Source of the DNA: Paracholeplasma brassicae
Lineage (GTDB): Bacteria; Bacillota_I; Bacilli_A; Acholeplasmatales; UBA5453
Direction of reading: 5' to 3'
NCBI RefSeq assembly: GCF_000967915.1
Contig: NC_022549.1
Location: forward strand, 980,366 to 1,044,365
Length of the DNA stretch: 64,000 bases
Shown: positions 45,609 through 63,984 of the stretch, one piece after another
How the letters are laid out: every line of letters begins with the position of its first letter
Numbering within the stretch: the first letter of the stretch is position 1
The notes under the pieces: model-generated
What the model was told of the DNA's origin: nothing
Databases searched by the model: none
Seen by the model: only the letters and a program-made list of their open reading frames with translations
Made by a program: the position numbers and the translations under genes

Positions 45609-45637
45609 AAAAAAACACCAGATTTCTCTGGTGTTAA
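45609..45637 (-). terminator. Terminator of the giant surface protein gene
   Basis: Minus-strand AACACCAGA-GAAA-TCTGGTGTT followed by TTTTTTTC, overlapping the stop codon. Confidence 0.85.
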
Positions 45638-48600
45638 GTCGTTGGATTAAAATCAACAATTTCTTGTTGTCCCCACGGCGGTGTTTGATTGGTTCTAACC
45701 ACCGTAATGGTTAGCGCATATTTCCTTGGAATGATATCCGATGGGATGTTAAATGAATCAGCAGATACATTGATTGAAGAAGATTCAAACTGAATCACAA
45801 ACGTAAAGCCCTCTGGTAGATCAATACTGACTTTATAGTTTCCACTCATTGAACTTCTAAACTGTAGGTTACTACCCACATTTGAACCACTAAAATGACT
45901 AAATAACGACATTGAAGTCTTTTTTGTTCCACTTTGGAATAAATCAAAGGTAACAAAGACTTTTTCTAAACTGAAATTAACAATGTTTTGATCGTAACGA
46001 ATGGTCAAGTCAAAATAGACGTTGTTCGTGATGTCTTGTACCGCAACAAAGTAATCAGTGTAATGTGTATTATAATTAGAGTCAAATTGGTCATAGTCTT
46101 CAGCATACACACGGTATTGAATGAAATTAAAGACCGAGTCGTCATCGCCTGGACTAAAATCTGTTGATAATAATTCTGATTGTAATTCCGGATTTGCTGC
46201 ATTATCTATATCTGTAATTCGTCTGATTATTGAACCAAATGGCAAATAAAACGTTGGGCTATAAAATGATAAATCACTCATTTGTACTTGCCCGATAATG
46301 TAGTAGGCATTGTAATCGTCATACGCGTTATAATTAATACCTGTTGATGGTAGTGTGACGATTGTTCTTGAGGCAGGGTTATCCAAATACGCCACATAAT
46401 CGATAGTTGAAATATACTCATAGTCCATAATAATGTTTAATCCAGCGTATACCGTATCTGAGATGAACGTCACATTAGAAATAAGTGAATCGTCACTCTT
46501 TAGTTTGCGAACAGTAAAATCTTCATACGCTTGATAGTTCCAAGTTAAATTAAAGCCCGCTACGTTTACTTGTTGAACATAAGAAACGTTAAATACATAA
46601 TCACCGATCGACGCACTTTGATTAAAATCAACTTCAAATCCGACCTCATCAATTCGGTTGATGAAGTAATCAAGTCCCAAGACAGCCGTTTGAGGTTCTG
46701 GCCCTTGATAAGTTGAACTAATTGTAAAGTTATCATCGTTAACAAAGGCATTTAACAAGTTATATTCCACGCGAATATTGGCAATTTCTTGTCTTAACAC
46801 ATTAAATTCAGATAATAGTCCTGTGCTTGCATCCCCATTTTTAAATGATTTGGTGATGTTCGGCTCTGGTGCTGCTTCTTCTAATCGATGTGTAAACGTG
46901 GTTATTGAGTTATCCTCAGCTCTAATTGTATAAACAATCGTATAACGATGTTGGTTTGTCGTTGTGTTAAACACAACTGGTGTTTGTAATACAACACTCA
47001 CAATCGTCGCTTTATGAGATAACGTTAACCCATTGATGTAACTTGGATTATCTGTGTTTCCCATCGTTGAAAAATCTACGATAAATGTCTCTGGGTTTGA
47101 AGCATCAAAATAGATCCCATAAGGTATGGTAGTTGTTAAGGTTTGATTATTCGTTATTTCATACGTAATGCCACCATAAGTAATCGATTTAATCAGTTTT
47201 TCACTACTTGGTCGTTTTGTAAAATTAACCACGTAATCTTGTTGGTTTGCAGCAAGTACTGATAAGCTGCTCACTAGTTTGTAGTTCCCACTATCGAGTT
47301 CGTCATCCAAATAAACTTGAATGTCTAAGGTCCCATTTGCATACGTTGCGTTTGCATTATTAAACCCACCAGGCGCACTGACAATGCCACCTTCGATTCT
47401 ATAAAGTGATGGGTCTATTAAGACATCATTTGCATCATAGAGCTTAATTTGATCCAATAGCTCATAAGTATCTTTTAAATTGACCGTGTTGTATCTAAAT
47501 GAAACCGATGGGTTATTTGTCGCTTGATAGTTCACTTGAGTATTAAGAGTCACATTTGTTGGGTTAGACCCACTAAACGTCGTGTTTACACCATCAACTT
47601 GCACGTTTGTAATCGATGATAATGATTGATCATTTGTTCGTTTGATTAATATTTTATAATCTCTATAAGTAACGTCATAATCAAAATCACTCTGATCACC
47701 TGTAAATGATTCACTGTAGACCCGCACGGTTCCATAGTGCTCTTGATAACTGTCTAATCCTGGCGAAGCTGAATGCTCACCATCAATGTTATAAGGACCA
47801 TAAGTAGTTAAAATCGTCGCTTTATCGTTTCCACTGTGAGGTTGACCATTAAACTTTAATGATGCACCATATGCGAGTTCATACGTACTTTCGTCGTTGT
47901 AGTTGATTGCAAAATTACTTGAAGGTGTGTATTCGGTCATTGTCGTTGTAATTCGTTGGTAGGTGACCTCTTGATTAGGTCCTGCGTACTCGTAATAATT
48001 GTAAGTCACAGTCTCCCATGTCAAACAAAATCCCCAAAACTGACGAGTACAAACTTCATAAGTGTCTTGTAATTGACGATACGCCCCATACCCAGCACCA
48101 ACGTTTGTAGCCGAACTAACTCGTCTACCGTTTCCTGAGGAACGCACTTGAAATAACTCATATGACGTACCCGAACGGTTGAATGTGGACCGATTATACG
48201 TAGGGTTTCCATCCTCATAACTTTGATTGTTTGATGTAAATGTCACATTATGTGTCCCATCGGTTGTGTTATACAAACGATTGGTATCATAAACATAATT
48301 GCCAGATGCTTGATCAAAGTAATAATGACCAACCCAGGTACCCGTATTCGATCCATAGCTATTTGGTACCCATGTCGCAATACTTGTGTTTGCCGTTTGT
48401 TGATTGATTGGTACGTATGAGTCTGTTACAACCGTTTGAAGTTGTGTTTCATAAGCCGCATCACTGTTACTAGCAACGTAATAAATAATTGTTCCATTGA
48501 CGTTATCAATTTCAGGTTCACCTAGTGTCACGCTCGGATCGTCTTCTTTGTATAATTCTAAATCGAATATGGTTGTTGCTATCGCTTTTTCAAGTTGTTT

Positions 48601-50982
48601 CATACCACTAAAGAATTTATAGTAGATACTTTGTCCTCTTGAAACAATCTCATCTTGCCAGGTTTGATCACTCATTGCAACCCCATCCACATAAGTGATT
48701 GGATTTAAGGCATTCAAGTCAATGTTATCTGGCATAAATAACCCATTACCAATACCTTTGGTTGATGATAATGCGTAAATACCAGCCGTTTGATTGATGT
48801 TTTGGAAGCCAATCTTATTTAGGAGTGGCGCACTAACTTTTGATTTCGGTATAAACTGAATAAAGTTTGAAATGTATTGATCGGTCATGAAGTTATTAAC
48901 CGCTGGTGCTGTTCTAAGTGGAAATGAGGTATGGAAAATACCACTGAATGTTGTATTATTAAGCCCACTTTGTCCAGTAGGTGCTGCTGCATCTAGTGAA
49001 TAACTCTTAATTAAATTAAATGGTTCTTTTGATGTGTCATCCGCTTTAGTCGTTGCCATATTGCCACTAACTTGGTTAATAATCGTTTGATTAGAACCAG
49101 TGATGGCTGGGGCGTTTCCTAAAACGTTAACAGTGCTATCAAAGTTGACTAAATAAGAAAACGTGACACGGGCAATTGAGAAGTTACCGGTACTGTAGTT
49201 CCAGTTATTGTTGCTACCTGTGTGAATTTTAGCGATTAGACCACCAAATGCATTGGCATTAGTTGATAAATTCGATGCTACGACAAATGAATGATTGATT
49301 GAAATACCCTGATTGATGCCATTGTAAACAAATGCATTTGCGCTAGTAATACGTCTAACGTTGCCATAATTAATCGAGTTTGAAATGAAAATTTCATTAT
49401 TATTTACGGTACCATACTTCACGAATTTATCAACAAATACAAATCCGTAAATGCCACTACCCAAATTTTTACCATAAATGTTACCATAATTTAGGTTATT
49501 AACACTACTTAACAACCCAAGTGACAAAATGCCCGATGATTTATTATGTGTTTCGTTAGCGATGTTTAATCCATCGCTATTTCTTGCGTTGTAGGCAATG
49601 ACGTCACCATAATTAATACTAAACGCAATTTTTGCAAAATATTGGAAATTATTTTGAGAACCTGCATCGACGTTATATTCATTTTTATCATTTCTTGTTG
49701 CGATCCCCGAGGCATTGACCCAACCATTTGTTGTTGAACTATAGGAAACGATGTTTCCATAATTAACAGAGTCTCTAATTTGAGCATATCTAGTTGCCAT
49801 CAAGAACGTAATACCGCCTGTTTCAACTTCAAATTCCCAACTCACACCTGTTCCACTTGATGATTGAATGGCGTTAGAATTATAGATATCCCCGGTGTTT
49901 GCTACACCTGTAAGCATGGATTCGTTAATTAAAACGATACCAGCCATGCGAGACTGTCCCTTAATTCGTGCATCGACATATATCTCACCGTCATTGACTG
50001 CGTTGTGGATTGATCCTTCTACTGGTGAGAAATCAACAGAGGTATAATCGATACCTTTTTGTTGATATAAATTCGTATTAGCATTTTTGTAACCAATACC
50101 TGAAATGAATAGGTTGGCTACTAAATTAGTATTGGCGTTGTAAAACGAAAGTCTACCACCATTATAAATGTTTCTTGCAGTTCTGTTTTGTGAGACTTCT
50201 TCAAATACACCATTAACTTTAAAAGTCTTTTGTGGGTTTGCTAAACCATCAATTGATCCACTTGGCAAGTATAATAATGCATTTGGCATCTCATTTTGTA
50301 AGTTAATCGAAATCGAACCGTTATTTCTTAATTGTTCGAAATCCATATTTTTACCTACCACAACACCACTGATTTTCACCCAATTGTGATAAATGGTATT
50401 ACTTGAGGTAACTGAAATATTCCCTTTATTGTATGCCTGAAAAACCTTGATATAACTACTACTAGCGTTAGTTACACCTAAGTTGTTATAATTACCTGTT
50501 GATACAAAATCATTGTTTGCTAACAAGACGCCAGCATAACGATTAAATAGACTTAAGTTCATTTCAAAATTCTTATTATTATAAAGCCCATAAAATGAAC
50601 CTGTTGAACCATAAGCAAACACACTACCAGCAACCTCTAAAGAGCCATTTGAAACGATAGCATTTAAATTTACGTTTGTGAATGTCGGATAAGTAATGTT
50701 AATAATCGCGTCATTCGTAAGTCCGTGCATCACAAAATCATTGACTAAATGAAGGTTTAAAACACCAGAAATTCGTGAACTTGTCGATGACTGATAATGA
50801 AAATTAAGATTACCTTTGTTCGTGAGGTGATTTAACTCACCACCAACAGATAAGACGTTACCGATAATACCAGCAGCATAAATGCTTGTGTGCGCATGGT
50901 TTTGATTGTATGTTTGTATTTGTCCTAAATTGATGACCTGATTCATTTGATTGATATGGCCATAGCCAACAATTCCGCCCAC
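45634..50982 (-). pseudogene. Giant secreted repeat protein, C-terminal three quarters (continues the gene starting at 52757)
   Basis: 1,782 residues from a GTG, but homologous coding continues upstream in the same frame to about 51180 (starting GFGLINETSFNGFIDTG), where it meets the other part of the gene. The first 500 or so residues are Asn/Gly-rich repeats of the type GGIVGYGHINQMNQVINLGQ and AGIIGNVLSVGGELNHLTN, resembling GLUG-type repeats of right-handed beta-helix surface proteins. Later parts are Tyr/Thr/Ser-rich with beta-sandwich character. No LPXTG signal, transmembrane helix or known enzymatic domain at the C-terminus. It is the last gene of the tandem-riboswitch unit. Joined length would be about 2,374 residues. 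Confidence 0.78.
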
Positions 50983-51104
50983 ATAAGAAATAGACGATTG
51001 ATTCGTCGTTAAATAGCTAAAGCCTGTGATTGGTGCTTTATTGGTTGATTTGATTACACTAATGCCTTCAGCATAGCCAATTAACCCACCAACTGCGGAT
51101 TCAT

Positions 51105-52757
51105 TTACATTACTTCGATATGTATGAACACCTGTGTCAATAAATCCGTTAAACGACGTTTCATTGATAAGACCAAAGCCTTACCAACTAAACCACCAAC
51201 ATAGGTTTTTGGGTTAGTCCCATTAGCGATTTGAATACCCGCATAGACATGCACGTTATTAATTGATCCACCACTTAAATAACCAGCAATTGAACCAATG
51301 GATACCTCAGGACGTTCGCTGTGTGTGGTAATATTTGTAATTCCCATTTTCATATCAATCACATTCAAATTTGCAACTCGTCCGAATAAGACACCAAATA
51401 AGCCATAGGTCACTAAGTTATTAATCATTACTTCTTTGTTGATTTCTAGATTAAGAATACTATAGTAGTTACTTGCGCCAACTATGAAATTTCTTGTGTA
51501 GAGCGTCGTCTGACTAGGATTTGAAATAGGTAATGATTCTAACGAACCTGAAAAACCAAACTTAGGCGTAATGTAAGCGTCTTTACTAACCGAATCATAA
51601 TTGATGTCATTATTGATACGGTAGTTTTGATTTCTAAAATAATTCGTTTCATTCAATAGTTGTGACATCACAACTAAATCTCTTGCGTTTGAAATCAATA
51701 GGTTGCCAGTTAGGTCTTTCTTTAGACCTTTTAATGTTGGGTAAATCAATGTTCTTAACGCTTGCGGGTTATTAGTAGAATAAGAGTTATTAAAATACCA
51801 TTTTGAATCAAAACGGTTACTCTCTTGAAATTGTGCCGTCGTTAAACCAACACTTAAATCCGTTGATAACTTGTTTTTTGTATATTTTTGTTGGTCATAA
51901 TACACATTTACTAATGATTGACCATTATTTGTATTGATGACCGGTGTGTGATTGATTGTTGAGGTTGACGCGTCCGATAAAACGGTAACCAATGAAACAA
52001 ACGCCTCTTTAAAGATCCCATTATTAATCGATATCAATCCAGATACCTCAAAATCACCATCCACGTTTAACCCTGGTTCTAAGCGGTCATCGATGTAGTA
52101 GACGTGAGAAACAAGGCCGTCATTTTTCCCAATCATGGTTGAGGCGTAAATCATTTGACCCCAAGCAATCGGTTGATACATCCAGACGTTTTTTAACCCA
52201 AGATTAACCACTTGTCCAGTGGCTCCAACGTTTGAAAACATCGAATAATGGACGAGTGCTTCGTCGTATTCATTGATGTAAACGGACTCTTGGATAATTG
52301 GTGAGAAAAATAGATTTGTAATTTCAAAACCTTGGCCATCAAACGTCCCATTGAACGGGGTATTAAACCCCACCGGAATAAAGAATAAACCTTGAGTTGA
52401 TGCTTCATTATAATCGATGTCTTTACCTAAAACGTAATTGAGATTCAAATACGTTTGTGGTTCTTCTTTGGACTTTAATGAAAAATAATAGAGATCAACG
52501 GCATTTTCAATTACGTATGTTTTAGCCGGATTAACAGCTTCTTGTCCTAAGTAGAGACGACTAAATTTAATAAAGTTATTTGTAAAGGCGATTGGTTGAA
52601 CAGGTGTTTTTAGACCTTCGCCATCAAATGTTGTTGTTTTTTCATAAATGCTATCTTGTGCAATAATTGTTTTTTCATTCACGTAGGAAACAATACCAAA
52701 AAAGCTTATGAAAACATAAGCTGCGATCATTAATTTGATTAAATAATGTCGTTTCAT
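51105..52757 (-). pseudogene. Giant secreted repeat protein, N-terminal part with signal peptide (frameshifted)
   Basis: 550 residues. N-terminal signal peptide (about 6-34: IKLMIAAYVFISFFGIVSYV). The mature part has segments such as PVGFNTPFNGTFDGQGFEIT and SIAGYLSGGSINNVHVYAG, i.e. a GLUG-like beta-helix pattern. The last 25 residues (from KALVLSMKRR) are out of frame: adding one G near 51178-51182 would continue as GGLVGKGFGLINETSF and join the gene to the frame ending at 45634 without any stop. So these are two pieces of one gene. It follows the two small SipW-type proteins in one operon behind the tandem riboswitch. Confidence 0.8.
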
Positions 52758-52774
52758 ACGATCAACTCCAAACG

Positions 52775-53437
52775 TTAATTAAAGAAAGTTTCACTGATTT
52801 GCCAACGTTCGCTAAATCGGTTGGCTTGTACAATATCAAAATAGAAATCGAGGTGTACAATACACTCTTCATAGTAATTGTCAGTTTCACGAACGTTATA
52901 TCTCGTGCCTCGATCAATTATCTTAAACTCATATGCCACATTAGGTATCAATATGTTGTCATAATAGATATATCCGTTATTATCACTAAGATATGAGAAT
53001 CCTGAATCCACAATGAATGGGTTATCGATTGGTCCCTCAGGCGTTCTTTCATGATAAATCACACTTGAGACAGTAGTATTCGATTGATAGTAATGTCTAA
53101 ATAATTGCCACTCATCTTGAAGTCTTAAGCGAAACCTAGAGGCAATAGAACTTGTGACTTCTACGCTTATATTTAATTTACCTATGTAGTTAGGTGCACT
53201 TGAATCGCCACCATCAATGATGATAATCTTTTTTTGATTGTCATAGTAAGGACTATTTAAACCAACCTCTAAGCCATCAAAATCAACTTTGAGCACAACA
53301 TCAAACTCACCATTTTCTAAAATAATCGGCAAAACTCTTTGACTGCGATACCAGGCAAAACTGCTGATGGTCAAGAGTAATGCCGATAAACTAAATATAA
53401 TCACGGTGACGATTATTTTTTTTGAAATGTACTTCAT
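52775..53437 (-). CDS. Secreted protein with SipW-type signal peptide
   Basis: 220 residues. Signal peptide KIIVTVIIFSLSALLLTISS followed by FAWYRSQ, the FAW pattern of SipW-processed (TasA/camelysin-type) proteins. The mature part is mostly beta strand, with an IDGGDSSAPNYIGKLNISVE stretch and repeated acidic loops; no enzyme motif is seen. It starts within the stop region of the preceding small protein and is followed after 17 nt by the giant surface gene. A minor fibre component or an anchor for the giant protein is an inference from context only. Confidence 0.72.
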   Translation of the reverse strand: MKYISKKIIVTVIIFSLSALLLTISSFAWYRSQRVLPIILENGEFDVVLKVDFDGLEVGLNSPYYDNQKKIIIIDGGDSSAPNYIGKLNISVEVTSSIASRFRLRLQDEWQLFRHYYQSNTTVSSVIYHERTPEGPIDNPFIVDSGFSYLSDNNGYIYYDNILIPNVAYEFKIIDRGTRYNVRETDNYYEECIVHLDFYFDIVQANRFSERWQISETFFN

Positions 53438-54111
53438 TAGAACTCACCATCCACTTGGATTGAGTCGATATTTAAGGCTAAATTATAGACATGGTCTAAA
53501 TAATTAGGGCCTTGATATAAATCATAATCTGCCCAAAACACCAATTGGAAGGTTAAAGTTTCAGAGGCAAATAATGAAACAGACTCTATATATTGTAACA
53601 TATTTTGATTGTGTGAGTCGATTAAGTTTCTTTGTTGTTCGAGTGTAGATCCACTTGAAATGATGGTTTGAATGTAGTTGTAATAGTCACGAATGTATTC
53701 ATGAGTTTCTTCGATGTTTTTGCCTTCTACAACGACTAAATAAATGAGGGCTTGCTCATTTAACGTATCTAAATTAATTCTATTTTTAACGGTGATGCTG
53801 TCTTCACTATTTGATAAGGTAATACCAATAGATGAAGCGATGTGGTTTAGTGCACCTGAGGTATTTAAGACAATATCTTTATTAAAATCTATGTATGTAA
53901 GTGTGTTTGTCGTAATGGTTTGACTAATCACTTGAACTGATTGATTTTCATCTACTTCAATCGATACATCCATTTGACTCGTTTCAAGGTTCACTAGTGT
54001 GACGTTATTTTGGAAGCTAAACCAAGCAAAAACAGACGTTGGTAATAACATCATTAATGACAAAACGATTAAGATTGATGGGATTAACGAACGTTTTTTC
54101 ATCACTAGCAC
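53437..54111 (-). CDS. Secreted protein with SipW-type signal peptide, first gene behind the tandem riboswitch
   Basis: 224 residues. Starts from GTG (or the ATG three codons later) with GGAGG upstream. Signal peptide IPSILIVLSLMMLLPTS then VFAWFSFQNNV. The mature region is predicted mixed alpha/beta: a beta-rich start, then a helical middle (SEDSITVKNRINLDTLNEQA, HEYIRDYYNYIQTIISSG) unlike the mostly beta TasA-like paralogues, then ETLTFQLVFWADYDLYQGPN. The FWADYD segment is at the place where other proteins of this locus have W-x-EG-x-D. Function unknown; probably a structural surface subunit. Confidence 0.72.
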   Translation of the reverse strand: MLVMKKRSLIPSILIVLSLMMLLPTSVFAWFSFQNNVTLVNLETSQMDVSIEVDENQSVQVISQTITTNTLTYIDFNKDIVLNTSGALNHIASSIGITLSNSEDSITVKNRINLDTLNEQALIYLVVVEGKNIEETHEYIRDYYNYIQTIISSGSTLEQQRNLIDSHNQNMLQYIESVSLFASETLTFQLVFWADYDLYQGPNYLDHVYNLALNIDSIQVDGEF

Positions 54112-54120
54112 CTCCTTTAT

Positions 54121-54215
54121 AAAAATAAAAAGCCAGCGATCTAATTTCTTAGATGCAACTGGCTACCATTTTTAGGCCCTATAGCTTTGCGTCACTAGGT
54201 TTCCCTAGTTTTGCC
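54121..54215 (-). promoter_or_regulatory. Class I c-di-GMP riboswitch (GEMM-I), second copy of tandem pair
   Basis: Minus strand: GGCAAAA, a stem with GAAA-type tetraloop (CTAGG-GAAA-CCTAG), the invariant GACGCAAAGC, GGGCCTAA and ATGGTAGCCAG, ending TTGC which pairs with GCAA at the 5' end. This is the GEMM-I consensus. The 3' strand AGCCAGTTGCATCTAA is also the 5' arm of an intrinsic terminator closing with TTAGATCGCTGGCTTTTT. Ligand binding should hold AGCCAGTTGC in the aptamer and permit read-through, so I predict an ON switch. The Shine-Dalgarno of the next gene follows 10 nt later. Confidence 0.93.
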
Positions 54216-54241
54216 GAGATTAAAAATAATCCTTAAGGGAC

Positions 54242-54331
54242 AAAAAAAGCCAGCCACTTAAAGATTAAGTGCAACTGGCTACCGTTTTCAGGCCCTATAG
54301 CTTTGCGTCGCTAGATTTCTCTAGTTTTGCC
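54242..54331 (-). promoter_or_regulatory. Class I c-di-GMP riboswitch (GEMM-I), first copy of tandem pair
   Basis: Minus strand: GGCAAAA, stem CTAGA-GAAA-TCTAG, GACGCAAAGC, GGGCCTGAA, CGGTAGCCAG, then TTGC. Its own terminator AGCCAGTTGCACTTAA / TTTAAGTGGCTGGC with T7 follows at once. It is nearly identical in core to the second copy 27 nt further on, and the two terminators in series would require both aptamers to be occupied for full expression. Confidence 0.93.
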
Positions 54332-54350
54332 TATATAATTTTCTATTTAT

Positions 54351-54379
54351 ATTATACTTTTAATGAACACATAAGTCAA
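54351..54379 (-). promoter_or_regulatory. Promoter of the tandem-riboswitch unit
   Basis: Minus-strand TTGACT (54374-54379), 17-nt spacer and TATAAT (54351-54356), located between the end of the upstream signal peptidase gene and the first riboswitch. It makes the downstream three genes a separate transcription unit. Confidence 0.8.
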
Positions 54380-54384
54380 GAAAT

Positions 54385-55035
54385 TTAATCTGTTGTATCT
54401 TCTTTTTTTAATTCTTCTTCGAGTTCTTTTCTTAATCGTTCTTTTTCTTCACTTATTATACGCGCTTTTTCCGCTTCAAACTGCGCATTAAGCTTTAGTT
54501 CGTTACGTTCTTTTACTTGTTTAAAAATAGAAGAAATTTCCATGACTAATAACACAACAAATGCAAGGATTGCCACTAAGAAAATTAAGCTTCTTGAGTT
54601 GACTAGTAACTTCCCAAGTCCAAATGCCATCGTTTGACCTATCACTATTCCAACAAGGTTATCTTGTGTTACTAATTCACTGTCAACAGGTGCTTTAGGG
54701 TTATCACCTTTCATTAGAATACTGCCATCAGAAATATCAATGGCTCTATGAACGATGTGAATTCCACGAGACGATTTATAGACTAACACAGGATCTTCAT
54801 CGTTTTCGACCATTCGATAAGCCTCATCATAGCTAATAGTTTTTACTATGATGAACTCACCCACTTGAATGGTCGGTTCCATTGAATCCGTCATAACGAC
54901 TGAATAGCCACGGTTAAACAGCGTTACAATTCCATTGTTTCTTACCGCTTTCGTCCCTGCGTAAACAAGTGAAAATATGATCACAAGCATGAAAGCAGTT
55001 AATAGGTAAGTTGTGATTTTCATGATTTTTTTCAT
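54385..55035 (-). CDS. sipW: Signal peptidase I, SipW-like (ER type), copy 1
   Basis: 216 residues. Two transmembrane helices (about 9-27 and 143-165) enclose an extracytoplasmic catalytic domain. The ER-type serine-histidine pair is visible: Ser51 in VVMTDSMEPTIQVG and His96 in GIHIVHRAIDIS, with Asp111 in LMKGDNPKAPVD; bacterial-type Lys is absent. Such SipW enzymes process TasA-type precursors, six of which lie in this locus. The cytoplasmic tail (170-216) is a charged predicted coiled coil containing EKERLRKELEEELKKE, nearly the same as in copy 2. Symbol given for the family, not for a demonstrated ortholog. Confidence 0.9.
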   Translation of the reverse strand: MKKIMKITTYLLTAFMLVIIFSLVYAGTKAVRNNGIVTLFNRGYSVVMTDSMEPTIQVGEFIIVKTISYDEAYRMVENDEDPVLVYKSSRGIHIVHRAIDISDGSILMKGDNPKAPVDSELVTQDNLVGIVIGQTMAFGLGKLLVNSRSLIFLVAILAFVVLLVMEISSIFKQVKERNELKLNAQFEAEKARIISEEKERLRKELEEELKKEDTTD

Positions 55036-55037
55036 AA

Positions 55038-55775
55038 TTAATCCTCGTAATCAATCAAGAGTTGATCGATTTTAAAGACTTGGTTCATAAATGCATTAGA
55101 ATTATTCTGAAGGACATTATTTGTATCATAAGAACCAATACTTGGATCAAAATATAAATCAAAAAATATAATTACCACACTATTAGCGTCATTTTGTTTG
55201 GCAAGCGAGACATCATCAATTAACGTGTAATTGCTGACCTCAGGCACAAAGTAAGTGTTTGCGTAACTAAATAAGGTCTTTTGATCGGCAGATTCTACGC
55301 TGTTGTTTAGATATTTCACGGCTTTAACTTCATATTTAAAAGCGCGTTGTATTTGATTGTTGATTTGGTTAAACCCGAGTGACATAACACCATTAAGTTT
55401 TAAATCGAGTGTCGTATCGGTTGTTGAACGATTACTAATGGTAATCGCAAAACTAAGTTTATCAGAAGGTTTTAATTTTTGAGGTATAACCGCACTTGCT
55501 GTAGGATTTTCTAAGAAATCGTAACAAAACGTTGTGTTATTACACGTATTGTTTTCTAATGTGTATGAACTACTACCATCAAATGTATCTTCATCGTTAT
55601 ATCTATAGAAATCAAAGTCGATTGCTAAATCTTTGACGCTTGCCACGAAAGGAGAAACACTTGCGTTTCTTGACTGTGAAATCCATGCGAAAACAACGCT
55701 CGTAAATAGACCAAGGGTTAATATGAATAACCCAATGGTCAAGAAGAACAAACGATTACTTTGGTTTCTTCTCAT
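55038..55775 (-). CDS. Secreted protein with SipW-type signal peptide
   Basis: 245 residues. Signal peptide LFFLTIGLFILTLGLFTS followed by VVFAWISQSRNA. The mature region is predominantly beta, with a possible disulfide loop (NNTCNNTTFCYDF), KLSFAITISNRSTTDTTLDL and VVIIFFDLYFDPSIGSYDT. It ends 3 nt before the signal peptidase copy 1 start, so the substrate-like protein and peptidase are coupled. GGAGGG precedes the ATG. Distant relative of TasA/camelysin-like proteins; no direct evidence for function. Confidence 0.75.
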   Translation of the reverse strand: MRRNQSNRLFFLTIGLFILTLGLFTSVVFAWISQSRNASVSPFVASVKDLAIDFDFYRYNDEDTFDGSSSYTLENNTCNNTTFCYDFLENPTASAVIPQKLKPSDKLSFAITISNRSTTDTTLDLKLNGVMSLGFNQINNQIQRAFKYEVKAVKYLNNSVESADQKTLFSYANTYFVPEVSNYTLIDDVSLAKQNDANSVVIIFFDLYFDPSIGSYDTNNVLQNNSNAFMNQVFKIDQLLIDYED

Positions 55776-55793
55776 AATTAACCCTCCTTACTT

Positions 55794-57788
55794 CTATTTC
55801 TCTTTTTCTTTTTGGTTCTTTAACTTCAAGACATTTTCATAGGCAGTCTTTTCAGCCTCAAGTTTGTGAAGCGTGCGCTCTTTTAGTTTTTCAAACTTAC
55901 TTTCAAGCTTAACTTGATTATTTTCGTGTTGTGCACGCAGTTTGACTTTAATGTGCGCTTCTTTTTGACGTTTTTCTTCTTTAATTTGTTTTAATTCTGC
56001 CATGTAATAAGCCTTAATGCGTTTCTTTTCTTCTTTAAGCTTATCTGCTTGTTCCTTTTTAAATGCTTTGATTTGCTTTTCTACTTCTTGAGATTGTTGT
56101 TTCTTTTCAAGCTCAAATTTGGATGTTATTTTAGCGAGTTTTTCTTCATAAGACTTATCAAGCTTCTCTTTTTCAGCCAAGAGTTTCACATTTTCTAAGT
56201 GATTTCGCTCTTCAACTGATTTTTTGAGTAGTTCTTCTGTTTGTTGGCGTTCTTTTTGAAGTTCTTCTTTCATTTTAGACGTATACTTTAAGCTTTCAGC
56301 CAACAGTTTATCGTTTTCTTTGGCCATTTGTCTTTCATTTTTTAATCGTTCAAGTTCTTTTTGTTCGGTTATTGATTTTTCTTGGCGTTTGGATAAACTT
56401 GAGATCAATCGTTGGTCATTCTTTTCGATTTCTTTTAACAAACTACGTTCAAGACGGATGGCATTGTTGTAATCGACTTCTTTTGTCTCTCTAATGATTC
56501 GAGCAATACGTTGTTTTTCTTTAAGTTCTTTTAACAAAACCTCAGGATCATCATTTTTGACTAGTTGTCTAAACACATCAGTTTCAGTATCTAATTGAAA
56601 ATGTGACTCATAAACCCCATTCGTAATATTGATTAAATCACGAATGGCACGTTTTAAGCCCACTTCATAGGTGGATGACTTTTCTAACTGTTCGTCCAAA
56701 TCCTTCTTAAACAACTTTTTGTTTTGTTCTAAAAAGTATTGATTTAGGTTGGTATCTTCGAGTTCAATTCCTGAAGGTTCTTCAATCACATCATCAATGT
56801 GTTTTGTTGATACATTAAAGTGTTTCTTCCGATACGCTTTAAGCTCAATTTCATCGTATAATTCTTTACGCTTGTTTTGATTTGCAGTAATGGTAATAAA
56901 CGACGTCATTGCAAGACGTTCGACGTCTTTTAAATACGCCTTATCAAAAGTTAAATCCTTTTCTTTAACCGTTACGTCGTAGGCAACTAAATTATAACGA
57001 TCAAGAAATAACCAAAGCATGTAAGCATTTCTAAAATCCACATTCTTTAAGATGATTTGTGTTTTTATAATCGGTGGAATGACTTTTTTTTGCCCTTCCA
57101 TTAATTGCATAAACTGTGAACCTTTTAAAGAAGCAACCAGTTTGTCTAAGTGTTCAACCCGTTTTAACAGCTTTTTATTGTATTCGTTTAATTCAGGGTT
57201 ATCAAGTTCATCTTTTAATGTCACATCAATCGATAGATCCACATTTGTTTGATTTAGCTTAAACGCTGATTGGTAATTAAAATGTTTCTTTTCATACGAA
57301 TCAAAATTCTCTTTGATCGTATCTAAACGAGATCTCACAAAATGAAATAAACGTTCAATTAACGTCATAATAAACCGGTTTTCATAAATGCCGTAATCAA
57401 TGTCGGATTCTTGAACCATAATCTTTTTAGGCATCACAGAACCGTCTCTTCTAACTTCTTTAATCATATGAGTATGTGAGGCTAAATGTCTGATTGATTG
57501 ACTATTGACTTTTTTTGCCCTTTCAATCGCAACGATTTCTTCATCGTATTTTAAAGACGATTTCGGATTTTTTGTGATTTTATCTAAACTAGGAAAATAG
57601 GATTCAATGGTTTTAATCCATGTTTCATCAAACGCTTTTGATTCTGACATGTTTTTTTGATAAACCGTATTTGACCCACTCTTTAACGCCTTATAAAACT
57701 GAGTCGTGAATGGATCATTTTCGACTTGTGTGAGTAGATCGATGTAATTTTGGTAAATCAAATCCAACTGGTCCTGTGGTTTTTTCAT
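55794..57788 (-). CDS. DUF2357-like protein with long C-terminal coiled coil
   Basis: 664 residues, no signal peptide or transmembrane helix. The N-terminal ~400 residues are helical, with the segment DIDYGIYENRFIMTLIERLF at about 129-148, which resembles the ENRF-type core of DUF2357 proteins that accompany McrB-type ATPases (McrC-like partners). From about 430 to the end there is an uninterrupted Lys/Glu-rich coiled coil (LEKKQQSQEVEKQIKAFKKE and similar), where other DUF2357 proteins have a PD-(D/E)xK nuclease; I see no nuclease motif. It follows the AAA+ gene by 15 nt. I infer a cytoplasmic adaptor or scaffold partner of that ATPase. The family call is moderate. Confidence 0.62.
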   Translation of the reverse strand: MKKPQDQLDLIYQNYIDLLTQVENDPFTTQFYKALKSGSNTVYQKNMSESKAFDETWIKTIESYFPSLDKITKNPKSSLKYDEEIVAIERAKKVNSQSIRHLASHTHMIKEVRRDGSVMPKKIMVQESDIDYGIYENRFIMTLIERLFHFVRSRLDTIKENFDSYEKKHFNYQSAFKLNQTNVDLSIDVTLKDELDNPELNEYNKKLLKRVEHLDKLVASLKGSQFMQLMEGQKKVIPPIIKTQIILKNVDFRNAYMLWLFLDRYNLVAYDVTVKEKDLTFDKAYLKDVERLAMTSFITITANQNKRKELYDEIELKAYRKKHFNVSTKHIDDVIEEPSGIELEDTNLNQYFLEQNKKLFKKDLDEQLEKSSTYEVGLKRAIRDLINITNGVYESHFQLDTETDVFRQLVKNDDPEVLLKELKEKQRIARIIRETKEVDYNNAIRLERSLLKEIEKNDQRLISSLSKRQEKSITEQKELERLKNERQMAKENDKLLAESLKYTSKMKEELQKERQQTEELLKKSVEERNHLENVKLLAEKEKLDKSYEEKLAKITSKFELEKKQQSQEVEKQIKAFKKEQADKLKEEKKRIKAYYMAELKQIKEEKRQKEAHIKVKLRAQHENNQVKLESKFEKLKERTLHKLEAEKTAYENVLKLKNQKEKEK

Positions 57789-57803
57789 AGTTATCCCTGC
57801 TTA

Positions 57804-59324
57804 TTAAAATTGTTTTCTTAAATCATTAATGAATAATGTACATTCTTTAAAGGCATTTTTACCAAATAGTTTATCCATCACGGTAATTAATTCTGCAAGT
57901 TCATCTTGTAAGAATGGTAAGTTTAACGTTTCAAACTTTCTTAAGATCTTTCTTGCGACCATATAATCTAAGCCTTCAATTTCAGACCCACCACAGGCAA
58001 CAAACACAGGCACAAACGCTTTAATTTGTTTTGTGATACGGTTACCGAAAGTGATTTTAAATTTCGCTGCAATGAAATCATCTAATTTTTCAAGATTATC
58101 CATGGTCTTTGGCGTAATTGGGTTTGCTTTTTGAGCCGTTAGGAACAACGACTCTAAATATTCATGACTCATTGTTATACCATCTGTTGGTGGCGCATCT
58201 ATGAATTCCGCCTTTTGGTTCATGATGATCGATACCGCACGGTCATAGACCTTATCAGTAATCGTAAAGGTAGAGTCATCTTTATTAGCCGTGCCAACAA
58301 ACCAAACGTTTTGTGGCACCAATAACTTACCATTTTCAAAACGTCTTGGATCACCAGGTTGAGTATCCGGCACAATATCGATTTTCCATTCACTCACGTT
58401 TGGCATTTCCATAATTGATAAGAACTCAGCAAAATAGTATTCAATACGAGCTAAGTTTAATTCATCTAGGACGATGAAGTTTAAATCTTCGCGATACGTT
58501 GTTTCATAAAGTTCTTTTAAGAAGTCAGTTTCATTAAACTTCTTTGTAAATTCGTTAAGGTATCCAATCATTTCGGCACGATCACGCCATGACGGTTGAA
58601 CCGATATGATGGCTGAATCGTTACTAAAAAACTTCCCCATTGCGTAAGGTAAACTGGTCTTACCAGTCCCAGAAATACCTTCTAATATCATAATTTTCGA
58701 TGTAGCCATACCTGAAAAATAGGTTGCGATTGTTTTTTTATCGTAATAAAGTCCCAGTTTAGATGCTGAGAAATTGATAAAACGATTAATTAATTCTGGT
58801 AGACCAATCATATCCTCAGGACTCATTGTAACGGATGTAATTTGATTCTTATAGGTGTTATCTACTTGAATCAATTTAGCAAAACGGGACGTAATGACTT
58901 TTGGTTTATCATCAAATGGGTTATCTTGTCCTGAATAACCAGTGACATTGCCCATTTTGAGTTGAAGAATTTTATTCTTTTCATCCGCAAGTTCTACGGT
59001 CTTTTGGCTTAAAAGAGCAATTTCTTCTAAGAGTTCGTCTTTATCTAGCTCAGACTTCGCAAAACGAATGTAATGTCTTAAAAACTGGTAAAGTCTTATG
59101 ACAATAAAAATAATGAATATGACGTTGATTCCAATTACGACAATGGCGATTAACCAGTCTAGGAATCCGAACGTTTTACTCGCATCGATTAAATTTTTAA
59201 AATAATTAACGACGTCATTAAAAAGTAAATCGGCAAACGCTTCAAAAATTCTTTTGAAAAATTCGCCGATGTTTGAAAATAACCTTCTAATAAAGTCGAC
59301 ATAATAACGTGCAAAATTGACCAT
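57804..59324 (-). CDS. Membrane-anchored McrB-type AAA+ ATPase
   Basis: 506 residues. An amphipathic N-terminal stretch (1-50) and one clear transmembrane helix (about 54-78) are followed by a short coiled coil (93-122) and the AAA+ module: Walker A LEGISGTGKTSLPYAMG (216-223), Walker B FIVLDELNLARIEYYFAEFL (DELN at 287-290), the McrB-like NLAR..YYF continuation, and sensor 1 VWFVGTANKDDSTFTITDKV. McrB proteins are GTPases of restriction systems; the GTP-specific NTxD motif is not evident here, the loop reads GTANKDDS. No DNA-recognition domain is present. Membrane anchoring and the neighbours point to a role at the secretion site. Confidence 0.85.
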   Translation of the reverse strand: MVNFARYYVDFIRRLFSNIGEFFKRIFEAFADLLFNDVVNYFKNLIDASKTFGFLDWLIAIVVIGINVIFIIFIVIRLYQFLRHYIRFAKSELDKDELLEEIALLSQKTVELADEKNKILQLKMGNVTGYSGQDNPFDDKPKVITSRFAKLIQVDNTYKNQITSVTMSPEDMIGLPELINRFINFSASKLGLYYDKKTIATYFSGMATSKIMILEGISGTGKTSLPYAMGKFFSNDSAIISVQPSWRDRAEMIGYLNEFTKKFNETDFLKELYETTYREDLNFIVLDELNLARIEYYFAEFLSIMEMPNVSEWKIDIVPDTQPGDPRRFENGKLLVPQNVWFVGTANKDDSTFTITDKVYDRAVSIIMNQKAEFIDAPPTDGITMSHEYLESLFLTAQKANPITPKTMDNLEKLDDFIAAKFKITFGNRITKQIKAFVPVFVACGGSEIEGLDYMVARKILRKFETLNLPFLQDELAELITVMDKLFGKNAFKECTLFINDLRKQF

Positions 59325-59342
59325 CGTATTACCTCTACTTAG

Positions 59343-60065
59343 TTAGGATTGTTTGTTTTGTTGTTCTTTCTTTAATTCTTCTAATAATTCTTTTCTTAAT
59401 TTCTCTTTTTCGGCTTCGAGTTCTTGTAAAACTTTTTCTTTATCTTGTTGATGTTTTTCTTCCATCTTATTCTTACTAATTGATAATACCGCTCTTGCAA
59501 GGTTTATGCCTTGAATCACTAGTAAAACAAAGACTGGTAGAATGATTGCGATTGCAAATCCAACCGGTGTTTGAAGTCTATCAAGTGTTGTACCTGCATT
59601 TGACCAAGTACTTCTGTGTACTGCGATTAGATCGTCATGTAATACTGTTTCATACTGTTTACCTTCGTTGTTTTCACCCTTGACGTATGCCGCACTATTG
59701 GCTGCTTTATCCCCTTGTGTGATCACGTAGTTTGATCCAATATCAACGATTCTGTGGGTATTAATTCTTAAAATATTCCAATCATAGAAGGTAACAATAT
59801 CGCCTTCTTTTAAATCTTTAATTGATTTATCATTTAACATACGTACGATGATTAAATCGCCTTTATCAAATGAGTTTTCTTTTGAACCTTCCATTGAGTC
59901 TGAAACGACCGATAAGAACCCATAACCTAATGCGTTAGGGATGTCGTTAGCCTTCTTAATTCTCATATTCGCAATTGAAAAAATCAATAAAGCTGCAAGG
60001 ATAATGTAAAATACTACATTTCCAGTAATACTTAATATTCGTTGAACCGTGTTTTTGTTTTTCAC
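59343..60065 (-). CDS. sipW: Signal peptidase I, SipW-like (ER type), copy 2
   Basis: 240 residues, GTG start with AAAGGAG upstream. Transmembrane helices at about 13-33 and 167-188. Catalytic Ser57 in LSVVSDSMEGSKENSF, His104 in LRINTHRIVDIGSNYV and Asp119 in ITQGDKAANSAAYV, i.e. the SipW/ER-type pattern. The cytoplasmic tail (from about 197) is a charged coiled coil ending EKEKLRKELLEELKKEQQN, closely matching the tail of copy 1 although the catalytic domains differ a good deal. It follows the TasA-like genes and precedes the AAA+ gene by 18 nt. Confidence 0.9.
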   Translation of the reverse strand: MKNKNTVQRILSITGNVVFYIILAALLIFSIANMRIKKANDIPNALGYGFLSVVSDSMEGSKENSFDKGDLIIVRMLNDKSIKDLKEGDIVTFYDWNILRINTHRIVDIGSNYVITQGDKAANSAAYVKGENNEGKQYETVLHDDLIAVHRSTWSNAGTTLDRLQTPVGFAIAIILPVFVLLVIQGINLARAVLSISKNKMEEKHQQDKEKVLQELEAEKEKLRKELLEELKKEQQNKQS

Positions 60066-60170
60066 TTAACGCATCTCCTTTTAAATTAGCCGAATTTATC
60101 TAATTTAAATTATAATATAAAAACGCTTTAAAATCTATATTTTATTGATTTTTTCTATTGGTTATTAGAA

Positions 60171-60208
60171 ATTTGGTTAGATCCACTACTTGTGAGTAGA
60201 TCTAACCA
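60171..60208 (-). other. Strong hairpin between major TasA-like gene and signal peptidase gene
   Basis: TTGGTTAGATC / GATCTAACCAA arms with further partial pairing inside. There is no good T-tract on the minus strand, so it may be a partial terminator or an RNA-stability element that lets the TasA-like subunits be made in excess over the peptidase and ATPase. Confidence 0.6.
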
Positions 60209-60242
60209 ATGTTTGTCTAATAAAATTCAGTTATTAAATATC

Positions 60243-61154
60243 TTATTCTTTTCCTTCAAATGATAAGGTTATAGCAATTGCTTCTTTTAAAATGGCATTA
60301 AAAGTGTCGGCATCCCATCCTTCAATCCATACTTTAACATCTAGATTACCTGTATTATATGTAATTCCATTTTCAGTAGCTGCACCAGCTAAGTTAAGAA
60401 CATCAAATCCATTAGGTGTTCCTGTTGTGCCAGCTGGGAAGCTTGTTTCTGTCGCAAGCATCGTTTGACCACTTAAAGCTGGGAACTGATTATCTGGGTT
60501 TTTAGCATTATGATAAGCGATTGCTCCATCAGTAATAATAATTTGGCTTCCGCTGTTTTCTACACCTTCAATTACACCATCGGCTAATTGAAATGCTTTT
60601 GTGACTGTCCCAACAACTGCTACTCTCACTGCATTTGCTGCTCTAACATCAACTGGAGCTGCAGGTGTGGCTTGTGATCCATCAGCCATTAAAAACGTTG
60701 TGTCTGGTGTCCACGATTTAACATCAGAACCGATTGTTGCATTTTGCCAATATAATTTAGTTGCATTTTGTGATCTAAAATACAAAGTAAACGATATATA
60801 TGAACCGGCAGGAGCTGTGTTTGATACCAAAGTTCCGACAGGATTATCTGTAACATCGGAAACTGAGATTTTAGTGAAGTTTATCGCATCAGTTGTAGTT
60901 ACGTCTGATAACACCGGTGTTTCACCACCATTTTGTGATTCTAAAAATGCATTAATCACACTACTTGGAAGTGTTGAATACCAATTAGTTTGATCTAGAG
61001 ACACTTCAATACCTTCACCTGCTGTAACTTCAGCATTGAACTGACCAATTTCTGCTCTATTTGATAATGTGAACCAAGCGAATGTGCTTGTTCCTAAAGC
61101 CGCAACCGTAATGATTACAGCTGTAATTGATAATAATAATTTTTTCATTTTCAT
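60243..61154 (-). CDS. TasA/camelysin-like fibre-type protein with SipW-type signal peptide (paralogue A)
   Basis: 303 residues. Signal peptide KKLLLSITAVIITVAALG then TSTFAWFTLSNRAEI, the clearest SipW-type signal in the locus. The mature protein is beta-rich: INFTKISVSDVTDNPVGTL, SYISFTLYFRSQNATKLYWQ, AANAVRVAVVG and a C-terminal VKVWIEGWDADTFNAILKEA. The WIEGWDAD motif recurs in the neighbouring paralogues and, altered, in the first gene of the operon. AAAGGAG precedes the ATG. It is about 70-80 percent identical by eye to paralogue B directly upstream, a recent tandem duplication. Likely a major structural subunit. Confidence 0.85.
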   Translation of the reverse strand: MKMKKLLLSITAVIITVAALGTSTFAWFTLSNRAEIGQFNAEVTAGEGIEVSLDQTNWYSTLPSSVINAFLESQNGGETPVLSDVTTTDAINFTKISVSDVTDNPVGTLVSNTAPAGSYISFTLYFRSQNATKLYWQNATIGSDVKSWTPDTTFLMADGSQATPAAPVDVRAANAVRVAVVGTVTKAFQLADGVIEGVENSGSQIIITDGAIAYHNAKNPDNQFPALSGQTMLATETSFPAGTTGTPNGFDVLNLAGAATENGITYNTGNLDVKVWIEGWDADTFNAILKEAIAITLSFEGKE

Positions 61155-62082
61155 TTTTCTCCTTTATTTTAATTCTTATTTTTTTTACTTTTCCTTCGAA
61201 AGAAAGTGTAACATTAATCGCTTCTTTTAAAATTGCATTGAAAGTATCTGCATCCCAACCTTCAATCCACACTTTTACAACTAAATTACCTGTATTATAG
61301 TCTATACCATTATCAGTAGCTGTACCATTTAAATCGAGTATGTCAAATCCATTAGGTGTTCCTACAACAGTACTTTCAGGGAAACTTGTAGCTGCTTCTA
61401 ATATGCTAACACTAGATAATTCAGGATACACATTGTCTGGGTTTTTTGCATTGTGATATGCAATTGCACCATTTAAAACGATTGAGTTACTAGCACTATT
61501 CACAACACCTTCAACTGAACCTGATGCTACTTGAAATGCTTTTGTTACTGTTCCCACAACTGCAACTCTAACTGCGTTTGCAGCTCTAACATTGACTGGA
61601 GCTGATGGATTTACACTTGTGCCATCTGCCATTAAGAAAGTTGTGTCTGGTGTCCATGATTTGACTTCGGATCCTATCGTTGCATTTTGCCAATATAATT
61701 CAGTTGCATTTTGTGATCTGAAAAATAATGTAAATGAAATGTAGGAGCTAGCAGGAGCAGCAGTTGGTACTAATGTCCCAACAGAATCACCTGTAACATC
61801 TTGAATTGATACTTTAGTGAATGCCACTGCATTGGTTGTTGTTACTGCTTCTAAAATTGGCGTTTCTCCATCATTTTGTGATTCTAAAAATGCATTAATA
61901 ACACTACTTGGAAGTGTTGAGTACCAGTTCGTTCCATCGATAGATACTTCAATACCTTCCCCTGCTGTAACTTCTGCATCGAATGAACCAATTTCTGCTC
62001 TATTTGATAGAGTAAACCATGCGAATGTTGATGCGCCAAGTGCTGCAACGACTAAGGTTACTGCAACAATGCTCATCACCAA
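61057..62082 (-). pseudogene. TasA/camelysin-like protein, paralogue B, disrupted by two 1-base indels at its ends
   Basis: The central sequence (GASTFAWFTLSNRAEIGSF to WIEGWDADTFNAILKEAINV) is an intact paralogue of the neighbouring gene. At the 5' end the true start is probably the ATG at 62104 (MKNLYKK..., GGAG upstream), but an A7 run (62083-62089) has one A too many to join it to the signal peptide. At the 3' end the frame misses the expected stop after SFEGK (61185-61187 in the shifted frame) because of one extra A at 61189-61192, and reads into the next gene's signal-peptide region. Corrected span 61185-62104 gives 305 residues, like paralogue A. Confidence 0.8.
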
Positions 62083-62128
62083 TTTTTTTGTATAAGTTTT
62101 TCATTTTCTTTTTTCTCCATTTTCTCTT

Positions 62129-63097
62129 TTATAAGTTTTCATTTATTTCGGTAAGACTGTTTGCTGGTTTGAATGTGAGTTGTATTTTGATTGTGTCATT
62201 CAAAATGGCATCAAACATATCCGCGTCCCAGCCTTCAAGCCAAATGTTGATTGTTAGTAAGCCTTTGTAGTAAACTCTACCGTACTCATCTAACTCGTTT
62301 GTTTCTATGAGCCTTAACAACAAGGATTCATCACCTAAGGCTAAGTTTGGGTTATATTCTGCAAACTTTGATAGCTGATATATCGTTTCAGGTATGATCT
62401 TTGGTGGGGTTAGATTACGACTGGTTACTTGATTGTAGTAAGCAAGCCCGCCGTAAGGCTTACCAAAACCTCTTAGCTCATTTTCACTTGGATCATAAAT
62501 GGTTGTAAGTAGACTGTCTTCTTCTCTTAAGTCTTGTTCGTTAAGCTTTTGCTCAACAAATGATACCCGAACTGCGTTTGATGCAAACGCCTTAAATGTT
62601 TCACCTGCATTCACGATTCTTGTTTCTGAATGCTGATATGTGACTTTTGATCTAAAATCCACACCCTTAGATAAGAAGTAGGTCCCCTCATCTGGTGGTG
62701 TGTCATAGATCGCACCTACGTTTACGTTTTCATATAGATATACGTTACGATAGGGAGAGGTTGATCTGAAGTAGAAATCAAGCGAGATATAATCACGATT
62801 CTTTCCTGCTTCTTTTAAATTTTGTTGGATACCAGTATAGAAAGTCTTGCCATCATAACTGGTCACATCCGTTAATTTTAACTTAGACAACTCGTCTAAG
62901 ATTGCTTGCCCTTGAAGGTTTTGCTCATAGTTTATGCCATCAAGAGACATTTCAAGTCGGTTACCTAGTGTAGCATTGATGCCAATGCCTTCGACTCTAT
63001 TAACCGTTGTAATGGTAATCCATGCGAAGGTCGATGCGCCAAGTGTGATTGTTAAGAGTGTAAATGAAATCGATAATAACAAGATTTTTTTTATCAT
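62129..63097 (-). CDS. TasA-like protein with SipW-type signal peptide (divergent paralogue C)
   Basis: 322 residues. Signal peptide KKILLLSISFTLLTITLGA then STFAWITITTVNRV. The mature domain follows the paralogues' order at lower identity: DGINYEQNLQGQAILDEL, RDYISLDFYFRSTSPYRNVY, FASNAVRVSFVEQ and the C-terminal NIWLEGWDADMFDAILNDTI. It overlaps the preceding gene by 4 nt (ATGA) and is translated second from the riboswitch-controlled promoter. Possibly a minor or tip/base subunit of the same fibre. Confidence 0.82.
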   Translation of the reverse strand: MIKKILLLSISFTLLTITLGASTFAWITITTVNRVEGIGINATLGNRLEMSLDGINYEQNLQGQAILDELSKLKLTDVTSYDGKTFYTGIQQNLKEAGKNRDYISLDFYFRSTSPYRNVYLYENVNVGAIYDTPPDEGTYFLSKGVDFRSKVTYQHSETRIVNAGETFKAFASNAVRVSFVEQKLNEQDLREEDSLLTTIYDPSENELRGFGKPYGGLAYYNQVTSRNLTPPKIIPETIYQLSKFAEYNPNLALGDESLLLRLIETNELDEYGRVYYKGLLTINIWLEGWDADMFDAILNDTIKIQLTFKPANSLTEINENL

Positions 63098-63804
63098 CTA
63101 TCCGCATTTGAAATTTCAAAGTTGATTTGAAACCTTATTCTTCCACCTAACATCTCATCACTTGAGTCTTGACCTTCAATCCACATAAGATAAGTAAATT
63201 TTCTAATTTGTCCTGCTTGTAATTTGTTAATATCTCTTTCGGCAACTGTCGTTCCGCTAAAGGTGACTGCCTCAGGAAGGTTCACATAATTTTTAGGAAA
63301 TGGGTCTTCTTTTTGATACATGGTCCTGGTGACTTCACCTTGGAGGTTGTCCTCAATCACAAGTATTCGAATCGCATCATCTAAATTATTGTGAATATCA
63401 TTTAGTGAAATGGTGTAAGTCAAATCAACCATTTCAAGCCCGCTATTCTTTATATAAAATGTGTACGCGGTATAGTCTTTGTTGTTTGGATCAGTGTATC
63501 TACCGTCAGTATTAATTGCGGCTTCCACATTCAAAAATAGATAAGTTGTATCAAGTGCATCCATCGTTGGGTTTACAAAGAGTCTAGATGCTGCATTTGT
63601 AAAATCCAAACTCTCAGACAATTGAATATTCTTTTCACTTGCCTCAGGACTCATTGTTAATGCATAAGTCCCAGTTTGAAGCCCATAGAATGTCACAAAT
63701 CCAAATCCTAAGGAAAGTAGACCACTGATCAAAATGATTAATGTGACGTATCTTCTTTTTAATTTAGGTTTTTTTTGTGCACCAAGTACTTCAGATAGCC
63801 TCAT
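63094..63804 (-). CDS. Single-TM surface protein, first gene of the riboswitch-controlled locus
   Basis: 236 residues. A basic N-terminus (KKPKLKRRYV) precedes one hydrophobic segment (about 19-42) that lacks the FAW pattern, so it may stay as a membrane anchor. The exterior part is beta-rich, with LDTTYLFLNVEAAINTDGR, YTFYIKNSGLEMVDLTYTIS and RKFTYLMWIEGQDSSDEMLG; the MWIEGQD segment matches the W-x-EG-x-D motif of the TasA-like proteins. So it appears to be a related fold that is anchored rather than released. A GAAGGTG site precedes the ATG, immediately after the riboswitch terminator. Confidence 0.75.
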   Translation of the reverse strand: MRLSEVLGAQKKPKLKRRYVTLIILISGLLSLGFGFVTFYGLQTGTYALTMSPEASEKNIQLSESLDFTNAASRLFVNPTMDALDTTYLFLNVEAAINTDGRYTDPNNKDYTAYTFYIKNSGLEMVDLTYTISLNDIHNNLDDAIRILVIEDNLQGEVTRTMYQKEDPFPKNYVNLPEAVTFSGTTVAERDINKLQAGQIRKFTYLMWIEGQDSSDEMLGGRIRFQINFEISNADR

Positions 63805-63832: not shown

Positions 63833-63923
63833 TATAAAAAAGCCAGTCGCTCACTTAACGTGTGCAACTGGCTACCATTTCAGGCCCTATAGTTTTGCGT
63901 CACTAGATTTCTCTAGTTTTGCC
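63833..63923 (-). promoter_or_regulatory. Class I c-di-GMP riboswitch (GEMM-I), single copy
   Basis: Minus strand: GGCAAAA, stem CTAGA-GAAA-TCTAG, GACGCAAAAC, GGGCCTGAA, ATGGTAGCCAG, TTGC, then a terminator in which AGCCAGTTGC-ACAC pairs with GAGCGACTGGCT, followed by TTTTTT. The core has ACGCAAAAC where the tandem copies have ACGCAAAGC, so one expected pair of the second helix is an A-C mismatch; ligand affinity may differ. As in the tandem copies, overlap of aptamer and terminator predicts an ON switch for c-di-GMP. Confidence 0.9.
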
Positions 63924-63930
63924 TTTTAAC

Positions 63931-63957
63931 ATGACATACTTTTCGATACAGTGTCAT
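63931..63957. promoter_or_regulatory. Inverted repeat downstream of the -10 box, possible operator
   Basis: ATGACA (63931-63936) and TGTCAT (63952-63957) arms separated by 15 bp, between the -10 and the riboswitch. Spacing of about two helical turns is typical of dimeric regulator sites. Confidence 0.4.
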
Positions 63958-63984
63958 TTTAGCATGATGGATTATCTTTGTCAA
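63956..63984 (-). promoter_or_regulatory. Promoter of the first riboswitch-controlled surface operon
   Basis: Minus-strand TTGACA (63979-63984), 17-nt spacer and TAAAAT (63956-63961), close to consensus. Confidence 0.82.

Follow-up and report, generated by a model that had tools for sequence, protein, structure and literature searches.

A tandem c-di-GMP-I riboswitch leader, probably acting in series, at a surface-protein locus of the wall-less bacterium Acholeplasma brassicae

The locus and its signalling setting

The window, by which we mean the whole stretch of 64,000 nucleotides that was analysed, belongs to Acholeplasma brassicae 0502, a wall-less mollicute with a genome of 1,877,792 bp in one contig, whose nearest relative found is Paracholeplasma vituli. 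Two units lie one behind the other on the minus strand (Table 1). Unit 1 is preceded by a single c-di-GMP-I aptamer and combines genes for secreted proteins and SipW-like signal peptidases with an AAA gene and a DUF2357 gene. Unit 2 encodes two small secreted proteins and a giant surface protein, and is preceded by a leader with two such aptamers in tandem.

Table 1. Features of the two units and their leaders (positions in the window)
Feature	Position	Strand	Remarks
Promoter P1 of unit 1, TTGACA-17-TAAAAT	63956..63984	-	11/12 match
Single c-di-GMP-I aptamer of unit 1	63933-63860	-	RF01051 61.9 bits
Unit 1 switch terminator	63835..63872	-	stronger than terminators 1 and 2
Unit 1, whole	54385..63804	-	
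Unit 1 secreted proteins	63094-63804, 62129-63097, 61057-62082, 60243-61154, 55038-55775	-	
Unit 1 SipW-like signal peptidases	59343-60065, 54385-55035	-	
Unit 1 AAA protein	57804-59324	-	
Unit 1 DUF2357 protein	55794-57788	-	
Promoter P2, TTGACT-17-TATAAT	54379-54351	-	11/12 sigma-70 match; start expected near 54344
c-di-GMP-I aptamer 1	54341-54267	-	RF01051 58.1 bits; order-specific covariance model R1 86.6 bits
Terminator 1	54280-54248 + U7 tract (to 54242)	-	5' arm AGCCAGUUGC from aptamer 1, 3' arm GUGGCUGGCU
c-di-GMP-I aptamer 2	54225-54151	-	RF01051 61.3 bits; order-specific covariance model R1 85.5 bits
Terminator 2	54164-54131 + U5AU5 (to 54121)	-	5' arm AGCCAGUUGC from aptamer 2, 3' arm AUCGCUGGCU
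Shine-Dalgarno of first unit 2 gene	54118-54109	-	sequence AAAGGAGGTG
Unit 2 gene 1, small secreted protein	53437..54102	-	N-terminal helix ending FAWF
Unit 2 gene 2, small secreted protein	52775..53437	-	build as gene 1
Unit 2 gene 3, giant surface protein	45634..52757	-	two ORFs: 51105-52757 and 45634-50982
Terminator ending unit 2	45614..45635	-	9-bp hairpin, then T run

The first gene of unit 2 most likely starts at the ATG at 54102, behind AAAGGAGGTG, rather than at the listed GTG at 54111. A family search returned no match for its product, and homologs were found at the related loci L060, L070, L067 and L058. At these same four loci unit 2 as a whole is conserved as a cassette, with two genes for secreted proteins and one for a giant protein, the last being one uninterrupted ORF. 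In the window a frame break near 51180 (minus strand), with no homopolymer at the site, splits this gene; it could be a sequencing error (the assembly is from 454 and Sanger data) or a real mutation. Pfam and NCBIfam gave no match for the controlled proteins. TasA does appear among their weak fold matches (8aur at E 0.099 and 5of2 at E 0.10, with models of modest confidence), and as neither the sequence nor the fold matches are significant, a TasA identity is not supported.

In unit 1, the AAA protein is a membrane protein and weakly McrB-like, and its gene lies with that for the DUF2357 protein between the SipW-like genes (55794-59324, minus strand). This placement is conserved in the order and recurs in numerous further records of Bacillota or Mycoplasmatota. 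Possibly it is a restriction-like pair that has been repurposed, for example for the assembly of a surface structure. Unit 1 also contains a hairpin of 15 bp (60209-60173, minus strand) that separates its secreted-protein genes from the SipW-like gene and may reduce expression of the genes downstream.

Cyclic di-GMP enzymes are numerous in this genome, with about 20 GGDEF and 8 EAL matches (some of the latter partial); for A. laidlawii, 14 GGDEF/EAL proteins have been reported (PMC2408644). PilZ had zero matches genome-wide, with positive search controls, and only three c-di-GMP-I aptamers were detected genome-wide, all at this locus. The two genes directly upstream of unit 1, just past the end of the window (L146, 361-4348), encode products in which a GGDEF domain has lost its GGDEF motif, while the EAL domain is full and carries EALLRW or EALIRW. 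Several relatives have pairs of similar size upstream of unit 1, mostly with EAL-like motifs, and others have a giant ORF there. It is possible that the pair in A. brassicae provides local breakdown of c-di-GMP beside its own output.

Aptamers, terminators and promoters

The preliminary description had claimed two GEMM-I aptamers before unit 2, each with its own intrinsic terminator on a shared aptamer strand, and one aptamer before the other unit. All of this is confirmed by our analysis. The Rfam model RF01051 (c-di-GMP-I, or GEMM-I) matches the minus strand of the tandem leader twice and the unit 1 leader once, and the 58.1 and 61.3 bits of the tandem pair are well above the gathering score of 35. 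The distance of 27 nt given for the pair needs correction: by the Rfam bounds 41 nt separate the aptamers, whose starts are 116 nt apart, and 27 nt is correct only if one counts from where terminator 1 ends to where the core of aptamer 2 begins.

According to the aptamer alignment, the window aptamers contain the conserved GEMM-I core, that is GGCAAA, a GNRA-capped helix, GACGCAAA and AGCC. Column 11 of the alignment, which by matching it to Bc3 G11 we take to be the ligand-specificity position (G for c-di-GMP, A for c-AMP-GMP), retains the G preceding GCAAA in 3/3 window aptamers. One aptamer of a relative (L052, 1501-1576) has A in place of this G and may prefer c-AMP-GMP. In Bc3-5, a triple-tandem c-di-GMP-I riboswitch before the cspABCDE surface-protein operon of Bacillus thuringiensis CT-43, exchange of the same G for A was used as the disabling mutation (PMC4759541). 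Aptamer 1 has a single A-C mismatch within its GAAA-capped helix; hence the affinities of aptamers 1 and 2 may differ.

The terminators overlap the aptamers, since AGCCAGTTGC occurs at 54280-54271 and again at 54164-54155 and is the 5' arm in both. Folds of chosen stretches gave hairpins of -10.7 kcal/mol for terminator 1 (z -2.1) and -14.3 for terminator 2 (z -3.7), and the terminator of the single unit 1 switch reached -21.3 kcal/mol in a comparable fold; folded from AGCC onward, the three values are -15.3, -14.7 and -20.8. The switch terminators were missing from the output of a simple terminator scan, probably because of their internal bulges and long stems. When aptamer 1 is held in the bound form in a constrained fold, terminator 1 is abolished and terminator 2 stays intact (0.96), and when aptamer 2 is held bound, terminator 2 is abolished and terminator 1 stays intact. 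The shared AGCCAGUUGC, the constrained folds and conservation of the overlap in 79/91 related aptamers indicate that terminator and ligand-bound aptamer are mutually exclusive. As a point against ligand control, the ligand-free calculation strongly favours both terminators, which means that the effect of c-di-GMP must be either kinetic or large.

Each aptamer therefore has an expression platform of its own, and a single promoter lies upstream of aptamer 1 only, as is expected of a serial tandem. A platform common to both aptamers, as in the tandem glycine riboswitch, is ruled out by the position of terminator 1 between them. That riboswitch likewise has two homologous aptamers in one leader, but they feed one common platform and bind cooperatively, while here the terminators are separate. 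Between 45 and 64 kb, on either strand, only two promoter sites match at 11/12 positions, and each of them precedes a switch region.

Variation across the Acholeplasmatales

Relatives were collected as 80 loci by means of the unit 1 AAA gene, together with as much as 10 kb of sequence to either side, and the order-specific covariance model R1, which was built from 33 aptamers of the order, gave 117 matches across these loci, some of them in overlapping records. The aptamer helices covary among the relatives. An overlapping terminator with AGCC as its 5' arm follows 79/91 related aptamers against 16% of shuffled downstream sequences, and with a threshold of dG <= -10 the figures are 76/91 against 2.8%, so that chance does not explain the overlap. 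Where the spacing exceeds 110 nt, every non-last tandem aptamer (25/25) is followed by a terminator of its own. Promoters matching at least 11/12 positions lie within 120 nt of 45/63 first or single aptamers; the corresponding figures are 2/27 for later tandem aptamers and about 0.3% for shuffles.

Other arrangements occur as well. In L090 (5936-6090) and L145 (5698-5856) the aptamers are spaced only 81-84 nt apart, lack an intervening terminator and have one terminator in common, a possible cooperative, glycine-like arrangement. The single unit 2 aptamers of L098 (13928), L099 (13941), L102 (13935) and L087 (14972) have no terminator and adjoin the start codon of the first gene. These four are probably translational switches, the expression platform having changed within the order.

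Copy number was compared for 14 loci with aptamers at both switch sites, placed on a tree of the AAA protein; as these loci are related, the counts are not a statistical test. Six of them (L058, L067, L069, L070, L072 and L098) have the tandem at unit 1 and a single aptamer at unit 2, and five, namely the window, L064, L066, L068 and L071, have the reverse. The remaining three (L087, L099 and L102) are single at both units, and 0/14 are tandem at both. The tandem array thus flips between the units across the order and is not tied to the giant-protein unit. We also considered whether tandem copies offset weak terminators. This holds in the window, where the values are -15.3 and -14.7 for the tandem and -20.8 for the single switch. 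Across relatives, however, terminator strength tends to track the unit, unit 2 having the stronger ones, and not the tandem state. Nor is the arm of the first terminator systematically weakened, as it is weaker at 9 junctions, stronger at 6 and equal at 9.

Mechanism, precedents and significance

In our opinion it is highly probable that the leader consists of two transcriptional ON switches in series, both of which must pass, so that read-through multiplies. Transcription would begin near 54344. The AGCCAGUUGC segment of aptamer 1 would either be kept in the ligand-bound aptamer or pair with GUGGCUGGCU to form terminator 1, and bound c-di-GMP would let the polymerase pass. A second, identical choice would follow at aptamer 2 and terminator 2, just upstream of the Shine-Dalgarno sequence of the first gene. 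The response to the ligand, and its direction in the cell, we infer from terminators that exclude the ligand-bound fold; this anatomy bears out the serial ON switches proposed in the preliminary description. At high c-di-GMP the operon for the secreted and giant proteins would then be switched on together with the adjacent single-switch operon for SipW and secreted proteins.

Read-through should be approximately the product of the two decisions to pass. Compared with one switch, the leak would be low, the midpoint raised about 2.4-fold and the curve slightly steeper. For two equal and independent 1:1 switches we calculate a read-through of f^2 and an EC50 of 2.41 times the single Kd, while EC90/EC10 falls from 81 to 40, an effective Hill coefficient of 1.19. 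The response had been described as steep and AND-like; the serial gating stands, by anatomy, but the steepness was overstated, given a Hill coefficient this low. By analogy, the main gain of doubling would be a lower background and not a sharp step, in agreement with the measurements for Bc4-5, whose background of 0.070 compares with 0.342 and 0.168 for the switches taken singly (PMC4759541). Different c-di-GMP thresholds for units 1 and 2, which had also been suggested, are possible.

How far the tandem leader acts for itself is a separate matter. The preliminary description gave it a private promoter, and P2 is indeed strong, but the leader is not insulated from unit 1: there is no terminator in the few bases between the unit 1 stop codon (54385) and the -35 box of P2 (54379). 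Read-through from unit 1 can therefore enter the leader, and transcripts arriving in this way can meet three switches in series. Hence the leader could be mainly a regulated boundary within one long operon, unit 2 standing behind three serial switches plus P2. The gap without a terminator speaks for this, and so do the unit 2 arrays of L064, L068 and L071, which have no strong promoter of their own (7-8 of 12) and fit operon-internal gating there. However, the strong match of P2 in the window leads one to expect transcripts of its own. We regard the boundary as somewhat unlikely to be the leader's main role, and it would supplement the two serial switches rather than replace them.

The switches might instead be coupled, the freed 3' arm of terminator 1 pairing with AGCCAGUUGC of aptamer 2 and partly disarming the second switch; such pairing would precede completion of terminator 2 and block both terminator 2 and aptamer 2. 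The two strands can form a duplex of 10 bp (-13.6 kcal/mol), and as long as aptamer 1 is bound and terminator 2 has still to be transcribed, the calculated cross-pairing is 0.96, or 0.62 with a looser constraint. In the full-length RNA, however, terminator 2 is favoured by 0.96-0.97 against 0.01-0.02. Strong transient cross-pairing is seen in only 9/24 tandem junctions of relatives and is kept at full length in 3, and the Bc3-5 data fit independent switches (PMC4759541). Since it is unfavoured at full length and not conserved, we rejected cross-talk as the main mechanism and consider coupling improbable. Equally, one aptamer could be a decaying or redundant duplicate, making the array effectively a single switch. 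A search of six other members of the genus, several of whose genomes are incomplete, gave no tandem array, so the array may be young, and the mismatched pair of aptamer 1 would suit decay. Yet both aptamers clear the cut-off by a wide margin with the conserved core intact. The terminator stems differ between the copies while both stay complementary, the difference in the capped helix is a compensated pair, and tandem arrays whose aptamers are separately terminated are found repeatedly across the order. These points make a redundant copy very improbable, and we retain two switches in series as the most probable reading.

The serial c-di-GMP-I ON design is already known from other bacteria. The switches of Bc3-5 were shown to be ON switches that act in series (PMC4759541), and the present leader resembles Bc3-5 in its serial c-di-GMP-I aptamers, each with its own terminator on the aptamer 3' strand, and in the surface-protein operon downstream. 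It differs in having two copies and not three, a wall-less host, a setting of SipW and secreted proteins and a neighbouring single-switch operon. A catalogue lists 347 c-di-GMP-I doublets and 12 triplets and terms the architecture 'pseudo-cooperative' (PMC9481103), and its doublets agree with ours in class and architecture. The c-di-GMP riboswitches also belong to the three families for which contiguous arrangement is enriched (PMC12452182). The c-di-GMP riboswitch Bc2 precedes the collagen adhesion protein gene cap (PMC4933901); as described there, it controls a surface protein, but as a single switch and not a tandem. The genes in turn recall the tapA-sipW-tasA matrix operon of Bacillus subtilis, where a SipW-like peptidase also stands beside small secreted proteins, although the present locus has additional AAA and DUF2357 genes, c-di-GMP riboswitch control and no significant TasA match.

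What is unusual is the setting, a conserved c-di-GMP-controlled locus for SipW and surface proteins in wall-less bacteria. Our literature search, which covered mainly open-access papers, turned up no account of c-di-GMP riboswitches or of TasA in either Acholeplasma or Mollicutes. One may speculate, as a rather doubtful extension, that the large set of c-di-GMP enzymes acts via this one locus, where three riboswitches would govern first the SipW and secreted-protein operon and then the giant-protein operon, the number of serial switches per unit being tuned in evolution so that two parts of a surface structure appear at different c-di-GMP levels. The locus, conserved, rich in surface-protein genes and with EAL genes at its flanks, provides the wall-less Acholeplasmatales with an identifiable c-di-GMP output. 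As the switch number flips between the units in relatives, they form a natural test set for the gain and loss of tandem riboswitches, which also bears on whether copy number tunes the threshold or the leak.
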